From assembly GCA_005776395.1 (NCBI GenBank), contig SXPJ01000033.1, forward strand, positions 1 to 35,788: DNA of 35,788 nucleotides, given 5' to 3'. The position numbers and the translations under genes were made by a program. Positions 29,416-35,666 of the stretch are shown piece after piece. This DNA comes from Bdellovibrionales bacterium. Its GTDB lineage: Bacteria; Bdellovibrionota; FAC87; UBA2466. The first letter of the stretch is position 1. Each line of letters begins with the position of its first letter. Under the pieces are notes generated by a model. The model was not told where the DNA came from. It did not search any database and was given only the letters and a program-made list of their open reading frames with translations.

Positions 29416-29725
29416 AGTGGTATTTCTAAACTTATGACTTAGGCCCGTTTTTTTTATCAACCCCCTTCGAATTGCTACGATTGACCAACTTAATTAGTAA
29501 GTATATGAGCGGCTTCTTCATTTTTAAATGCAATGGCTTTATTGAGGCAAAATTTTGCATCATGTTTTTTATTACCCCCTCACGGCTATTAGCTAAAACC
29601 TAGAAGCTGGCATTATCTCCTTCCCAACTTGCCGAATTTCACACAAGGAAATTGACACTACCTACACAACCTCTTAATCATACAAGTCGTTGCTTTGGTA
29701 TCATTATTTATGATACCATATCAAT
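29416..29725. other. Gene-poor spacer before the nucleotidyltransferase module
   Basis: This spacer of about 310 bases holds a perfect TTGACA (29652-29657) and the operator palindrome described separately. A minus-strand frame at 29490-29579 reads AKFCLNKAIAFKNEEAAHIL before a stop; it looks like the end of a helical-repeat protein but lacks a start, so it may be a decayed fragment. Nothing else is seen. Confidence 0.4.
29696..29723 (+). promoter_or_regulatory. Palindromic operator before the nucleotidyltransferase gene
   Basis: TGGTATCAT-TATTT-ATGATACCA is a perfect inverted repeat with 9-bp arms (29696-29718). Its right arm overlaps a second, TGATA-CCA-TATCA (29711-29723). It ends 3 bases before the ATG at 29726 and lies downstream of TTGACA at 29652-29657. 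Palindromes of this type at the first gene of a two-gene module are usual for autoregulated toxin-antitoxin operons. Confidence 0.65.
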
Positions 29726-30265
29726 ATGAAACCAAAGGAGACCATTGGAGCATTTGACGAGTTTCTCGCGTCTCACAGAATAGCCTTTTCCGCTGTGGCG
29801 ATCGGCGGAACAGCGCTCGCCATTCTAGGTGTCATTTCTAGAGAGACGCGCGACTGCGACATACTTGATCCTGAAATCCCCGAGAATGTTCGCAAGCTAG
29901 CTGAAGAGTTTGCCGCAGAGCAAACACGCGTGGGGAACTTGCTCCGCGAAGATTGGCTCAATAATGGTCCGGCCTCCCTCATAAAGAACCTTCCAGATGG
30001 CTGGAGAAATAGATTGATTCCTCTTTTTTCCGGCAAATCTCTAAAGCTTTCTACTTTGGGCCGCCCCGATCTGCTTAGGACCAAGTTTTTCGCCCTCTGT
30101 GATCGCGGAACTGATCGCCAGGACTGCCTAGCTCTGAAGCCGTCAGTCGAAGAAATCAGGGAGTCCATCGAATGGGTGAAGTACCAAGACGCCAACCCGC
30201 AATGGCCTAAGCATGTGGAGGAAGCGCTTACGAGTCTAGCGAAGGAGTTGGGTTATGGGATTTAA
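29726..30265 (+). CDS. Nucleotidyltransferase-fold protein (DUF6036/MenT-like), likely toxin-antitoxin component
   Basis: This 179-residue protein has the polymerase-beta-type nucleotidyltransferase signature: AIGGTALAI (Gly27-Gly28), then SRETRDCDIL with Asp43 and Asp45 as the metal pair, and a later LGRPDLLRTKFFAL helix. The reading is DUF6036-like, a group related to AbiEii and MenT toxins that modify tRNA or other RNA. It overlaps the next gene by 11 bases. Base composition is more GC-rich than the host-like part of the window. Target and direction of toxicity are not visible. Confidence 0.7.
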   Translation: MKPKETIGAFDEFLASHRIAFSAVAIGGTALAILGVISRETRDCDILDPEIPENVRKLAEEFAAEQTRVGNLLREDWLNNGPASLIKNLPDGWRNRLIPLFSGKSLKLSTLGRPDLLRTKFFALCDRGTDRQDCLALKPSVEEIRESIEWVKYQDANPQWPKHVEEALTSLAKELGYGI

Positions 30266-30929
30266 GCGAACCATCCTTCCCGAAGAGCTTCCGAGAGGTG
30301 AGCAGCTTTCTGGTGATCTAGCGGGTATCGGAATGCTCGTTGCGACTACACCTTCGAAGAGCCCCAACATCGAGAACACAGTATTTGCTGCATCCATTGA
30401 GGGAATAAATAGCGATCTTCGGACTCTTTCGCTTCTCGTCGATTGGATCGATTTGCACTCTGATCGGCTAAACGCGGATCGATTGATCAAGATGATTAAA
30501 GAGAACAGCAACGAACGAGTTCGTTGTTTCTGGAAGGCCATTGCTCAGTGGAAAAAGAAGGATATGCGGCTTAAGCGCCTAGTGCGGTTTTATCGAGGTC
30601 AGAGGCTCGATCTGCTTGAGTCAGGAACCGAGTTTCTCATCAAGAGGAAGGGCGAGGATGATCGCTTTGAGGGAACGTGTTTGCGTGTTCCCAACGAAAC
30701 CTTGCGCCATCGTCCCACCGATATTCTCGCCCCTGAAGAGCTTGCGAAGGTGCACGATGCCTATCGACAGCGGATTATGATTGGACCTTCTTACCGCGCC
30801 GATATGTGGGCCCATTTAGAACGGACGGGAGCGATTTCTGCTTCGGAGCTAGCTCGCAAAGCATTCGGCTCTTTCGCTACAGCGTGGCAGGTCTTAAGGG
30901 ACTGGTCCATCCTTCGTTCTACAAAGTGA
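30255..30929 (+). CDS. Partner of the nucleotidyltransferase, unknown family, possible winged helix at the C-terminus
   Basis: I do not recognise this 224-residue protein. It has a charged, mostly helical middle (RVRCFWKAIAQWKKKDMRLK) and a C-terminal segment (GAISASELARKAFGSFATAW) that looks like a winged-helix DNA-binding region. Its start overlaps the end of the nucleotidyltransferase gene, so it is translationally coupled and would be made in a fixed ratio. In AbiE and MenAT systems the partner is a winged-helix antitoxin that represses the operon, and this protein plus the upstream palindrome would fit that plan. A 20-bp inverted repeat covers its stop codon. Confidence 0.6.
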   Translation: MGFKRTILPEELPRGEQLSGDLAGIGMLVATTPSKSPNIENTVFAASIEGINSDLRTLSLLVDWIDLHSDRLNADRLIKMIKENSNERVRCFWKAIAQWKKKDMRLKRLVRFYRGQRLDLLESGTEFLIKRKGEDDRFEGTCLRVPNETLRHRPTDILAPEELAKVHDAYRQRIMIGPSYRADMWAHLERTGAISASELARKAFGSFATAWQVLRDWSILRSTK

Positions 30930-30938: not shown

Positions 30939-31087
30939 GCGCTTGCATACCTCCTGATCCCTGATAAAAGTTAGACACTTTTGACTCGACGACTAGTCGT
31001 ATTAGAGCATTACAGAGTTCCGCAATTGGCCTTCGATTAAACTCAGGTTGTTCGGTTCGATCAGATTGTAAATGGCGTTTCTCAGGT

Positions 31088-32022: not shown

Positions 32023-32556
32023 TCAACGTGGATCAACCGACTCCTTTGCCGTTTCCAAAGAAATGCGATCAATGATGGCGATGGCTTTAGTGGAAGCCTC
32101 AAAGGCATCATTAAATAGACTCCATGCGGCACACTCTAAGAGCCAACCAAATTTTCCGACTCCCTTGGTAAAAGGGACGGGGGTAGCTTCTTCTGTTCCA
32201 TTCGCGAGGCCCGTTATTTTGGCTAGCAGTTGGTCGTTGGAGATCCCCTCTAAACCGGATATTGCCCGTACTCCCCCAGATGCGGGTTTAAGCTTCCAAA
32301 AAGCTTTTTGAAATTCTCCATGAACAATATGATCACGTAATTTTTTGGCGAGCTTCAGTTGTTCTCGCTCGCTCTCGTTGATACGTGAAGAAAACTCGTT
32401 CACGACCGCTCTATAAACTCTGTCGAAGTCAAAACCGTCGGATAGTTCGCTGATCGTTTTGGTCTTGTCGGCCAAGAGTCTTACTTTCAATTCAAACAAG
32501 GCCGCTCGTCCAGCCACATTTTCAAACTCCTCATAAACTCTGTATAAAAAATCCAT
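32023..32556 (-). CDS. HEPN-like protein, possible RNase, last gene of the AbiE-CDF operon
   Basis: This 177-residue protein is all-alpha in appearance and carries KLRDHIVHGEF at about 72-82. The Arg74-Asp-x3-His79 arrangement matches the HEPN-type Rx4-6H motif with a polar residue after Arg, a signature of RNases used in defence and toxin systems. The remainder (GFDFDRVYRAVVNEFSSRI) is not recognised. The ATG overlaps the CDF transporter stop by one base (TAATG), so synthesis is coupled to it. The family assignment rests on one short motif and helical look, so it is tentative. It may be a toxin or a regulatory partner of the transporter. Confidence 0.5.
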   Translation of the reverse strand: MDFLYRVYEEFENVAGRAALFELKVRLLADKTKTISELSDGFDFDRVYRAVVNEFSSRINESEREQLKLAKKLRDHIVHGEFQKAFWKLKPASGGVRAISGLEGISNDQLLAKITGLANGTEEATPVPFTKGVGKFGWLLECAAWSLFNDAFEASTKAIAIIDRISLETAKESVDPR

Positions 32557-33467
32557 TAGTCTGCTGAATCCGGTTCAAAGAACTGCCATTTGACCTCGGG
32601 GAATTTAGCTTTGATGTCACGTTCCATTGTATTGATGGCATTAATAAGTTGGCTGACCTCTTTCAGGTTACCGGGGGATATTTTGCCGCTAATCATGACT
32701 TCGTGATCACCGATCTGGAGAGCTATGAGGTTGAAGACCTTTCCACCAGGGATCAGCTCCGAAACCTTAGCCTCAATGTAGCCTCTAAAGTCCGTCGCTG
32801 GCGTTTCCCCAATAATAAGTGACTTGATCTCTATGGCCAACAGGACAGCAACGCCCACCAGCAGGGCGCCTACTGAAATTGATCCGGCGGCGTCCCACAC
32901 CGGGTTCCCAGTGAGCCAAGATAGCAGTAGGCTCAAAGTTGCGAGCATTAAACCCACCATAGCGGCAGCGTCTTCTGTGAAAATGACCAACAGTTCAGAT
33001 GAGGTCGTTTTACGAAACCAGATCCATAAATTGGGGTATGGGTTCTGTGCTTTCACTTCATTTATGCAGGCTTTGAACGAAAATCCTTCCAAAATCAAAC
33101 TGAACAACAAAATTCCCAGACCTAGGAATGGCGAGGACACCTCTCCATGTTCGGAAAGTTTATGCACGCCTTCGTAGACTGCGAACAACCCGCCGAGGGA
33201 AAAGAGAAGAATCGCGACAATAAATGACCAGAAGAAGGCCTCTCGTCCATAGCCCAATGGGTGTCTTTCAGAAGGGGGGCGCTTCGCCTTTTTATTTCCA
33301 ATCAGGAGCAGTACCTGATTGGAGCAGTCCACGACACTATGAATCGCTTCGGCAAACAACGCCGCACTTCCGGAAATGGTTGCACCAACGAATTTTGCGA
33401 TCGCGATCCCGAGGTTCGCGAATAATGCGATGACAATAACTTTAGTTGATCCGCCGCCTGCACTCAT
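32556..33467 (-). CDS. Cation diffusion facilitator (CDF) family metal transporter
   Basis: This 303-residue transporter has six predicted membrane helices. ATISGSAALFAEAIHSVVD in helix 2 contains the metal-site His-x3-Asp. Helix 5 reads FTEDAAAMVGLMLAT, an EDxAA form seen in the ZnT9-like branch and not the usual DxxxD or HxxxD, so metal specificity may differ from zinc. The C-terminal 80 residues (GGKVFNLIALQIGDHEVMIS) form the cytoplasmic dimerisation domain. The ATG overlaps the preceding decarboxylase fragment by 4 bases (ATGA), and its stop overlaps the HEPN-like gene. Export of Zn, Mn, Co or Fe is possible; none can be named. Confidence 0.9.
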   Translation of the reverse strand: MSAGGGSTKVIVIALFANLGIAIAKFVGATISGSAALFAEAIHSVVDCSNQVLLLIGNKKAKRPPSERHPLGYGREAFFWSFIVAILLFSLGGLFAVYEGVHKLSEHGEVSSPFLGLGILLFSLILEGFSFKACINEVKAQNPYPNLWIWFRKTTSSELLVIFTEDAAAMVGLMLATLSLLLSWLTGNPVWDAAGSISVGALLVGVAVLLAIEIKSLIIGETPATDFRGYIEAKVSELIPGGKVFNLIALQIGDHEVMISGKISPGNLKEVSQLINAINTMERDIKAKFPEVKWQFFEPDSAD

Positions 33468-33655
33468 GTGGGAGTTCTCCTTTTTATTAATTGAGCATCA
33501 GCGATATTACCCCGTTCAATCTCCCGACAAACCGCCTCTTGCGCCTTAAAGATATCCTTTAGGAAACTTTCGATCGCCTCTGGTTTCATTTTGCTGCTAC
33601 AGCTAAAAATATCCACTGATGCACAGCCGTGTTCTGGCCATTCAAAGATTCTCAT
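33464..33655 (-). pseudogene. speD: N-terminally truncated S-adenosylmethionine decarboxylase (SpeD/SpeH-like)
   Basis: This 63-residue reading frame matches the C-terminal half of bacterial AdoMet decarboxylase: FEWPEHGCASVDIFSC aligns with the WPExGYAAxDxFTC core, and the EIERG ending also fits. The active-site cysteine is kept (Cys19), but the autocatalytic Ser that becomes the pyruvoyl cofactor, and the His beside it, would lie before residue 1 and are absent. The usual histidine two residues before the Trp is Phe4. As an enzyme in polyamine synthesis it cannot work as written. A good GGAGG ribosome binding site from the end of AbiEii precedes its ATG, so it may still be expressed. The break matches insertion of AbiE. 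Confidence 0.7.
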
Positions 33656-33657
33656 TG

Positions 33658-34530
33658 TTATTTACCTCCGTTAATTACCGCAAAGTAACTTTGCAGGATT
33701 TTAAAAGCCCAGCCTATGTCGTGGGGTAAATTACATTCCTTTGCCATCGTATCAAACCGCTCGGTCCAGTCCGCTGGTGGCGGTTCTAAGGTTTTTGGTA
33801 GAGAGTGGCTCTTTCTTCTCTTAAAAGTTTTCTTTAGCGCATCAATAACTCTCACAGTGTCGAGCTTCTGGTTATCAATTAAGAGAATTATATCGATCAA
33901 ATCTCTCGCTCTCGAATTGGCTACGGTTCGTGGTCGTGTATACGCGTGTAGCTTTTCTGCGAACTGTTGCTCCTTTGGAATGGTGACTACATCTTTCGAT
34001 GGAATTTGTGCGAACTCAAGCCAATCTCGACTTGTTAGAGTTTCAAGAGGTTCTATCGGGTAGTCTCCTGCAGCCACATCTACATGGAACTTCACAAAGC
34101 TTCTTTCATCTATTCTTGATTCAACAGGAAATCTAGCGCCTCCATAAGGAACCGCCTCCAAATCAAGCATCTGTCCTCCTACAAGGAAGCTAAAGTGATC
34201 GTTCAACTCAATGCTCGCGTCACGAATCAAAAGATCACGAAAGAATTCTCCCAGTTCTTTTTTCTCTTTGAGGATTTCGGTACTTCTCAGCGTGAGATCA
34301 ATATCCTTAGTAGCTCTCGCGGTTTGAATTCTCAGTTCAAGCGCATAACCCCCTTTGAGAGCAAAGGGGCTGGGGCTTCTATGAAAGAGTCTTGCAAGAA
34401 GTCTATCGAATGCAACTTGCCTACGTAAACGTTGCAAAGCCTTTCCCTCTGCCAGCGCGATTGTCTTTAATCTACTTTCCAGAGCCTCTCTAAACGCTTT
34501 TGCTGTTTGATATGTCTTTTGCTGAGCCAT
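33658..34530 (-). CDS. abiEii: AbiEii-type nucleotidyltransferase toxin
   Basis: This 290-residue toxin of the type IV AbiE abortive-infection system has a nucleotidyltransferase core with FALKGGYALELR (Gly60-Gly61) and ATKDIDLTLR (Asp76-x-Asp78) as the nucleotide- and metal-binding motifs. Length is normal. In known AbiE systems it arrests growth of infected cells by GTP-dependent activity. It begins at an ATG that overlaps the antitoxin stop by one base and ends 2 bases before the decarboxylase fragment, with the ribosome binding site of that fragment inside its own 3' end. The protein looks intact. Confidence 0.9.
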   Translation of the reverse strand: MAQQKTYQTAKAFREALESRLKTIALAEGKALQRLRRQVAFDRLLARLFHRSPSPFALKGGYALELRIQTARATKDIDLTLRSTEILKEKKELGEFFRDLLIRDASIELNDHFSFLVGGQMLDLEAVPYGGARFPVESRIDERSFVKFHVDVAAGDYPIEPLETLTSRDWLEFAQIPSKDVVTIPKEQQFAEKLHAYTRPRTVANSRARDLIDIILLIDNQKLDTVRVIDALKKTFKRRKSHSLPKTLEPPPADWTERFDTMAKECNLPHDIGWAFKILQSYFAVINGGK

Positions 34531-35141
34531 TATATGACTCCTTTAAGAAGAGACTTAAGTTTCTCAGAGACTGTTCCAGAAATTCTAGGATCTTTTAGTT
34601 CCTCTTTCGTAAGAAGACCTCTGTGGAGGCCTTCTTTAATTCCTTGTTGAATAAACTTTTCATCACTTTGATTTGAAGTGATGAGATCGAGAATCGTACG
34701 AAAAGGAGTTGTGAATTTAAGGACACCGCTTTTTCTAAGATCCGTTTTTGGAATTAGCCCATAGTGAAGGACAATAATCTTAGGGACTTCAGTTCTACGA
34801 AAACCTTTTGGCACAGTCATGTGAAGCTTTGATGGATTAAGATCGGAAAGCTCGTAGAAACTCATGGCGGTTTCATGGGAGTAGATTCCTTGTGGATCAT
34901 CGTTTCGATCCCTTGACCAAAAATAGTAAAGAATAAGGTCCCACCGATCCGAACGAGGGTAGTTAGCAAGTCGATAGATGCCTCTTTGCTCTCTGATCCA
35001 GTTGCCCGACTTTACATGGTAGGCATGATTTTTTTCACCAAACCCAGCATCAATTGCTTGTTGGGCTGTGAAAAAACCTTCCTGGTCATCTGCTACTTCG
35101 TAGAGAGTTTTAAAGGTCTGTTTTCTTATATTTTGCTTCAT
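34530..35141 (-). CDS. abiEi: AbiEi-type antitoxin and autorepressor
   Basis: This 203-residue partner of the AbiEii toxin has an N-terminal winged-helix region (EVADDQEGFFTAQQAIDAG and WIREQRGIYRLANYP) that in known systems binds inverted repeats in the abiE promoter. The C-terminal half (SHETAMSFYELSDLNPSK, TTPFRTILDLI) matches the AbiEi antitoxin domain. It is first in a five-gene packed operon, so it would also regulate the transporter and HEPN-like gene downstream. Its promoter, at 35171-35198, has a perfect -35 next to a long palindrome. Confidence 0.9.
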   Translation of the reverse strand: MKQNIRKQTFKTLYEVADDQEGFFTAQQAIDAGFGEKNHAYHVKSGNWIREQRGIYRLANYPRSDRWDLILYYFWSRDRNDDPQGIYSHETAMSFYELSDLNPSKLHMTVPKGFRRTEVPKIIVLHYGLIPKTDLRKSGVLKFTTPFRTILDLITSNQSDEKFIQQGIKEGLHRGLLTKEELKDPRISGTVSEKLKSLLKGVI

Positions 35142-35147
35142 ACATAG

Positions 35148-35198
35148 AACCCTTAATTATTACGTAGTCTATGCTACGTCATTTATATCGGATGTCAA
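35148..35198 (-). promoter_or_regulatory. AbiE promoter and operator half-sites
   Basis: On the minus strand, TTGACA occupies 35198-35193 and TAGCAT 35176-35171, with 16 bases between them. ACGTAG-TCTATG-CTACGT (35162-35179) is an inverted repeat over the -10 box. AACCCTTAAT at 35148-35157 repeats the arm of the palindrome at 35199-35231 and contains the ribosome binding site of abiEi. This fits AbiEi autorepression. Confidence 0.7.
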
Positions 35199-35231
35199 GC
35201 ATATAACCCTTAATAATTAAGGGTTATATGC
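35199..35231. promoter_or_regulatory. 33-bp perfect palindrome abutting the AbiE -35 box
   Basis: The arms GCATATAACCCTTAAT (35199-35214) and ATTAAGGGTTATATGC (35216-35231) are exact reverse complements around one central base. It starts at the base next to the -35 hexamer. The core AACCCTTAAT occurs again at 35148-35157. It is too AT-rich and lacks a T-tract for a typical terminator; an operator for AbiEi or an activator, or a recombination site, is more likely. Confidence 0.7.
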
Positions 35232-35236
35232 ACACA

Positions 35237-35455
35237 TTAAGAACTGGCCTTGTAACCTTTCGTAATTTCAATCGTTTCCAATTCATTATTGAGACGTTTT
35301 GCTTGTTCACGCGCTTCTTCGAGCGTCATGGTTACATTAAAGTAGTGCTCCCCCAGTTCTCATTCTGGAATCATAGACCCGATGCACTTCCCATTTTCGT
35401 AGCGTGTTTTTAGGAGTCGCCATCCGGTTCTTCTATTCCGAATAAAGTAACCCAT
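35237..35455 (-). pseudogene. N-terminal relic of a site-specific integrase with an internal stop
   Basis: The minus-strand frame from ATG 35453-35455 to TAA 35237-35239 reads MGYFIRNRRTGWRLLKT, then has a TGA at codon 32, then NVTMTLEEARERAKRLNNEL. The TMTLEEARERAKRLN segment and the opening resemble the N-terminal arm-binding part of tyrosine recombinases, but the core-binding and catalytic domains are missing. It is probably the decayed integrase of the element that brought AbiE. No further coding continuity is seen beyond the TAA. Confidence 0.5.
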
Positions 35456-35475
35456 ATAGAAATCCCTTCTACAGG

Positions 35476-35500
35476 TCACCGTGTCTGTTTTTAACGGTGA
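35476..35500. repeat. Inverted repeat upstream of the integrase relic
   Basis: TCACCGT (35476-35482) and ACGGTGA (35494-35500) are exact inverted repeats. They lie upstream of the integrase relic and may be a leftover operator. The rest of 35456-35666 holds nothing recognisable. Confidence 0.35.
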
Positions 35501-35666
35501 TACCGTGTCGCGATTTCCGGATTTAGAAGCTTTTCAAATTATCGATTAAGGGTACTTGCACATTGTGGTTGGGATGGGGTATTTGCTATCAGAAATCAAC
35601 CTCACCAAGGGGCGATTCCCCCGTCAATGGCGTAGAGCCCCAAAAATGAATGTACTTCTTGGTACC

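Follow-up and report, generated by a model that had tools for sequence, protein, structure and literature searches.

Is a toxin-antitoxin module that heads a tightly packed row of other genes the front of a working defence operon, or the mark of an accidental insertion? The question is raised by five frames on the minus strand near one end of the window, by which we mean the whole stretch of DNA analysed, i.e., contig SXPJ01000033.1 of a Bdellovibrionales bacterium (35,788 bases; contig C24 of G000 in our numbering, an assembly of 106 contigs and 2.76 Mb). In order of reading they encode AbiEi, AbiEii, a remnant of SpeD, a CDF transporter and a 177-residue protein with HEPN-type features. A preliminary description of this DNA had set two ideas side by side: a defence island that couples metal flux and RNA cleavage to AbiE, and an accident of insertion that rewired an older transporter-HEPN pair. 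On balance, we think it probable that recombination fused an AbiE module, carried on mobile DNA, to the end part of an acquired polyamine-type operon, and that the five-frame unit is accidental. The frames, together with a ribosome-site-like sequence, are the following:

34530-35141, minus strand: AbiEi antitoxin/repressor, 203 residues (PF13338, PADLOC AbiEi)
33658-34530, minus strand: AbiEii nucleotidyltransferase toxin, 290 residues, 1-base overlap with abiEi (PF08843, PADLOC AbiEii)
33664-33669, minus strand: GGAGGT, a ribosome-site-like sequence within the end of abiEii, 8 bases ahead of the ATG of the SpeD remnant (sequence reading)
33464-33655, minus strand: SpeD C-terminal remnant, 63 residues, 2 bases past abiEii and with a 4-base overlap with the CDF gene (PF02675)
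32556-33467, minus strand: CDF cation-efflux family transporter, 303 residues (PF01545, TIGR01297)
32023-32556, minus strand: 177-residue HEPN-type protein, 1-base overlap with the CDF stop (E22, R74, H79)

The preliminary description had named the first four products and placed the junctions between -4 and +2 bases, and both statements hold: all four products score above their Pfam cut-offs, and the junctions measure -1, +2, -4 and -1 bases in order. AbiEi reaches 33.3 bits with PF13338 AbiEi_4 (cut-off 25) and 201 bits with PADLOC AbiEi, and AbiEii 102.2 bits with PF08843 (cut-off 22.5) and 287 bits with PADLOC AbiEii; no good NCBIfam model was found for the pair. The SpeD remnant matches AdoMet_dc (PF02675) with 44.2 bits (cut-off 25) and stays below cut-off in NCBIfam. 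The CDF protein matches Cation_efflux (PF01545) with 132.9 bits (cut-off 26.6) and TIGR01297 with 118.9 (cut-off 82.35). From this packing we infer that the five frames are cotranscribed, and the 1- and 4-base overlaps suggest that they are coupled.

The third frame is a truncated gene. Its match covers profile positions 61-107 of 107, i.e., the last 47. The best relative is the SpeD of another genome, G321 (63% over residues 3-54), and identity to the SpeD of three of the polyamine-operon genomes described below is 42-63%. The full SpeD of G321 reads ...AESHIAIHTWPEHG... where the stub in the window starts with MRIFEWPEHG; the ESH stretch of the former is gone and the next histidine is replaced. 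We take the ESH stretch to hold the pyruvoyl, self-processing serine of SpeD. The stub has no complete SpeD domain with that serine and is presumably inert for this reason. Two other SpeD matches, both full-length, lie elsewhere in the same genome.

The relatives of this stub stand in recognisable company. In G321 and G356, speD is preceded by an FAD/amine-oxidase-type gene and by a gene for a membrane protein with no Pfam match, and frame reading gives a similar neighbourhood in G361. Further upstream, all three have a frame whose start resembles, by eye, the Spermine_synth protein of G338 (134 bits). In G338, the genes for this Spermine_synth protein and for an amine oxidase precede the orthologue of the window's CDF gene, which ends the operon; the overlap is 8 bases. 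SpeD and this type of CDF would, from such gene orders, share a polyamine neighbourhood. The window resembles these speD/speE-type operons in the relatives of its SpeD stub and in the place of the CDF orthologue as operon end in G338; it differs from them in keeping a C-terminal piece of SpeD and the CDF only, and frame reading found no speE or oxidase gene on the window contig. Since the full SpeD relatives and one CDF orthologue lie in operons of spermidine-synthase/amine-oxidase type, AbiE appears to have been joined to the tail of an operon of this type. As a separate observation made by eye, the loci of G338, G321, G356 and G361 (L160, L161, L162 and L163, respectively) carry similar small or membrane-associated genes in a row upstream of the spermidine-synthase-like gene.

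On the other side of the AbiE pair, between abiEi and the contig end, lie the following repeats and remnants:

35240-35533, minus strand: weak, stop-interrupted integrase-like remnant in two pieces, 35240-35359 (Arm-DNA-bind_3, E 0.15, below cut-off) and 35363-35533 (no match)
35515-35641, no strand assigned: remnant of the end of an ISL3-family element, with copies (94-100% at the DNA level) on 7 further contigs of this genome
35649-35788, no strand assigned: second repeated terminus at the contig end, also present, at 94-100%, where six other contigs end

The ISL3 assignment comes from the copy on contig C27, where DDE_Tnp_ISL3 scores 43.5 bits. ISL3 ends also lie no more than about 0.5 kb from the AbiE pairs of contigs C40 and C27, and related copies occur in three other genomes (G005, G002 and G012). 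An origin as an integron cassette was considered and rejected: the integron-integrase model gave only below-cut-off recombinases, likewise in all 14 control genomes, and the repeats at 35515-35641 are the ISL3 end. Because a truncated speD lies at the joint of AbiEii and CDF, and because mobile-element remnants lie upstream, the accident of insertion is the half of the preliminary description that we favour.

Its other half, the defence island, would lead one to look for the same parts together elsewhere. Within our sample, which was confined to Bdellovibrionota genomes, no recurrent co-occurrence of AbiE, CDF and the HEPN-type gene was found. Of the 8 other HEPN loci, none was matched by an AbiEii or a CDF model; of the 14 other CDF loci, none was matched by an AbiEii or a HEPN model; and the HEPN model matched none of 60 other AbiEii loci. 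These 60 AbiEii loci were taken from the first 60 of 192 matching genomes (G000 excluded), with a single locus per genome, up to 5 kb fetched per side and 488 kb in total; the set favours high-scoring AbiEii genes, and contig ends truncate many of its loci. As the AbiEii model was built up on these same loci (4 seeds; 47 at the first pass), its recovery of 60/60 is partly by construction. A CDF-like gene near AbiEii was seen in one of the 60 (G284), upstream of the two-gene pair and not downstream. This single case compares with an expectation of about 0.26, derived from 36 CDF matches in 26 genomes (about 67 Mb) and counted with the Pfam model, not with the locus models. The preliminary description had made a joint system depend on the last two genes co-occurring elsewhere, and within the phylum sample they do not. 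The idea of metal flux and RNA cleavage joined to AbiE is thus not supported, as there was no co-occurrence of CDF with HEPN and the one CDF-like gene near AbiEii lies in another position. The supposed older transporter-HEPN pair was not seen: the older company of the CDF seems to be polyamine genes, as in G338, and the HEPN gene had no constant partner across the 8 other loci.

The AbiE module itself looks ordinary, with toxin and antitoxin roles assigned by family. The abiEi gene lies directly ahead of the gene for the AbiEii nucleotidyltransferase, and the start of the pair carries three candidate control features:

35171-35198, minus strand: promoter-like TTGACA-16-TAGCAT ahead of abiEi (hexamer match)
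35138-35174, no strand assigned: candidate AbiEi operator repeat of 37 bases near the start codon, 76% to the second copy
35195-35231, no strand assigned: second candidate AbiEi operator repeat, containing a perfect palindrome with 16-base arms (35199-35231)

The 37-base repeats and the palindrome touch the promoter hexamers, at the inner edges of both repeats. Across the region, four promoter-like sites were found against 4.5 expected by chance. According to PMC3985639 and PMC7319586, the abiE operon of Streptococcus agalactiae is bicistronic, its transcript starts 26 bases ahead of abiEi, and AbiEi represses it via inverted repeats. The window shares with this type IV toxin-antitoxin system the order of antitoxin then toxin with a 1-base overlap, an AbiEi of winged helix-turn-helix type, a nucleotidyltransferase AbiEii and repeats at the predicted promoter; it is these repeats and the Pfam scores that make the module look ordinary. 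It differs in having three more frames on the same strand within a few bases, where the described abiE operons end with the second gene. The nearest relative of the pair within the family is in G006 (44% and 48%), where directly after the pair only opposite-strand frames follow. Among plasmids, AbiEii matched 2 records at E 1e-20.

We hypothesize the following course of events. A recombination would have joined an ordinary AbiE module to the tail of a polyamine-type operon, and the joint would have removed the operon front together with about the first 60 of the 107 speD profile positions. The SpeD stub, the CDF gene and the HEPN-type gene would be left reading on from abiEii through stop/start overlaps, on one transcript from the abiE promoter, so that AbiEi would repress the whole set. 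AbiEii would work the way it does in AbiE systems elsewhere; CDF and the HEPN-type protein are probably passengers under AbiEi control, their expression rising when AbiEi falls. The stub may persist as a ribosome relay that leads from abiEii into the CDF gene via the ATGA overlap. If so, the locus shows a toxin-antitoxin module caught after its fusion with an unrelated operon, with a gene stub left over that may pass translation on to the gene behind it. It also cautions against taking packed gene order by itself as functional linkage.

Several observations weigh against this account. The ancestral order is assembled from several genomes: intact speD directly ahead of a CDF of the window's type was found in no genome, the polyamine company of CDF is direct in G338 only, and in 10 of the 11 near CDF loci no polyamine gene was seen beside CDF. 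The position of the HEPN-type gene after CDF is not accounted for by it. Packing behind AbiEii-type genes may not be rare, as a close-following candidate frame is present in 14 of 58 other AbiEii loci (two of the 60, with less than 300 bases downstream, being left out). Finally, an accident does not predict that two of the four AbiEii loci of the same genome (C24, the window, and C40) have a CDF gene close by. On C40 (L092:2541-5184), AbiEi_3, AbiEii and, 362 bases further on, a 193-residue Cation_efflux protein of a different CDF type lie on one strand, whereas no CDF was found in the stretches fetched around the AbiEii loci of C27 and C53. The genome has three CDF matches in all, on C56, C24 and C40; since the five further genomes from its genus carry a single match each, the copy on C56 is probably the conserved one. 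With four loci, seen after the fact, we treat the adjacency of CDF and AbiE in this genome as a lead only. The plasmid relatives of the C40 Cation_efflux protein are mostly rhizobial.

This adjacency is the starting point for another explanation, in which acquired DNA with cation-transporter genes is stabilised by AbiE and the CDF gene persists through its AbiE neighbour. AbiE is able to stabilise mobile elements, as stated in PMC3985639, and two of the three CDF matches of the genome lie beside AbiEii loci; the observation is nevertheless post hoc, the window and C40 differ in both CDF and AbiEi types, and one CDF-like gene in 60 loci is no clear excess over the expectation given above. We regard such addiction-linked cargo as rather unlikely. 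A bolder form of the same thought, that AbiE islands of this lineage capture transporter genes under antitoxin control, here together with an unclassified HEPN RNase, seems to us very unlikely; were it true, a cell that lost AbiEi would express a cation transporter and two distinct growth-arrest enzymes from a single promoter. It is also unlikely, in our judgement, that CDF and the HEPN-type gene are driven by promoters of their own and that their packing behind abiEii means little. Promoter-like sites do lie within abiEii (33915-33887) and within the CDF gene (32840-32812), but the sites of the region do not exceed the number expected by chance, and the short overlaps suggest coupling.

A functional composite defence operon is a further alternative: AbiEii and a HEPN RNase would act as growth-arrest effectors, CDF would shift metal levels, and all would be released when AbiEi is lost in infection. 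The tight packing with stop/start overlaps, the HEPN motif and model and a distant HEPN relative that comes last in a type I restriction operon agree with it, and HEPN domains are common in defence loci according to PMC3710099. The parts, however, are not found together in any of the other HEPN, CDF and AbiEii loci sampled, bar one CDF-like gene otherwise placed, and a dead SpeD stub in mid-operon is unexpected in a selected system, so that we hold this explanation to be highly improbable. Most improbable of all is, in our view, that the joint is an artefact of assembly in a metagenome-type contig. The assembly is in 106 contigs and the window contig ends in repeats common to other contig ends, but about 1.9 kb separate the abiEii-speD joint from the repeated end, and no repeat spanning the joint was detected.

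The last protein of the row outlines, as a by-product, a HEPN-type family. It had no match in Pfam, NCBIfam or PADLOC. Its nearest relative, in G043 of the same phylum, is 37% identical over 92 residues, and profiles brought seven further relatives among 368 genomes, i.e., nine Bdellovibrionota genomes in total; the 13 other genomes of the taxonomic family that includes the window's genome gave no match. This nine-member set leaves out five of the 14 genomes matched (G165, G181, G223, G249 and G286; E 0.012 to 0.095). A weak match in G260 was dropped, as it has no recognised motif and was gone in a later profile search. Invariant in 9/9 sequences are only E22, R74 and H79 (E...Rx4H). The RDxxxH motif of the preliminary description reads R74-D-H-I-V-H79, with the codon of R74 at 32337-32335 and that of H79 at 32322-32320. 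For the HEPN superfamily, PMC3710099 describes Rx4-6H, placed where helix 3 ends, with a polar residue following R and, in many cases, an acidic one upstream. The window protein has Rx4-6H with a polar residue, D, after R, and E22 upstream, within helix 2-31 of a predicted model.

That all-helical model, made from the nine sequences (pLDDT 79.4, pTM 0.72), replaced a poor one from two sequences (pLDDT 54); in it, R74 falls within the final turns of helix 61-78, and H79 comes just past the helix. The VIA comparison ranks a HEPN toxin first (Z 6.3; 107 residues aligned, 3.6 Å), and a second HEPN toxin (Z 5.8) and Csm6' (Z 5.1) are among the top 15, all of these scores lying within the range of unrelated helical bundles; Foldseek with the same model gave 0 matches at E 0.001. 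The earlier call of a HEPN-like protein is supported by motif and model, and weakly by fold comparison. DUF3644, which PMC3710099 names as HEPN, is weakly matched by 2/9 members (best E 0.0016) and PADLOC Csx21 by 1/9 (E 0.015), the window protein matching neither. PHROGs and PDB sequence searches with the HEPN proteins gave noise only, and two scans of genome contigs returned only an already known relative. A phage or plasmid gene was considered and rejected, with no match to the 177-residue protein in plasmids, phages or viral contigs; the HEPN relative L007 had no match in plasmids either. Membership of the HEPN superfamily is, from motif and model, very probable, and activity as an RNase plausible. 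The family is named in none of the four protein-family libraries searched and is present in nine of the 368 genomes. Its likeness to HEPN, with DUF3644 as the nearest named family, lies in the invariant E...Rx4H, the motif at a helix end and the all-helical model; it differs in having no MNT or other constant partner and, for the 177-residue protein, no library score above cut-off.

The window protein is also short, with 177 residues against open frames of about 280-350 residues in seven of the eight relatives. The neighbours of these relatives vary. In G184 (L139:4792-10958), genes for HsdS, HsdR and a YgjP-like metallopeptidase are followed, tightly packed, by a 329-residue distant relative that ends this type I restriction operon. 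The family, a candidate RNase, may from this one locus be a restriction-linked effector. In the stretches fetched, a phage integrase gene is a neighbour in G209, an HD-domain gene in G298, and a PIN-domain gene and a group II intron reverse transcriptase in G316. The relative of G316 itself (L158:5347-6386) runs over two overlapping frames, possibly as a decayed copy or through a sequencing error.

At 48-65% identity, the CDF protein was found in 11 other genomes of the 368; a cut-off of E 1e-20 left no match in the 13 other members of the genome's taxonomic family. Among plasmids, 21 records matched at E 1e-30, all below 60%. Canonical zinc CDFs carry metal-site residues in transmembrane segments 2 and 5, with HxxxD in the latter. 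The window protein reads HSVVD in segment 2 and EDAAA in the region of segment 5, and 24 of 26 aligned rows share the ED. As this protein and most relatives have ED where HxxxD is usual, it may transport something other than the usual substrate.

Beyond the five frames, at 29726-30929, a DUF6036 nucleotidyltransferase gene is overlapped by a gene for a 224-residue protein without a family. The G+C of this pair is 0.51, against about 0.42 in the neighbouring efflux genes, and the pair is a possible second import of toxin-antitoxin-like type. It is flanked by short repeats at 30950-31007 (copies on C70 and C55) and 29609-29658 (copy on C79), whose copies are 86-95% identical.

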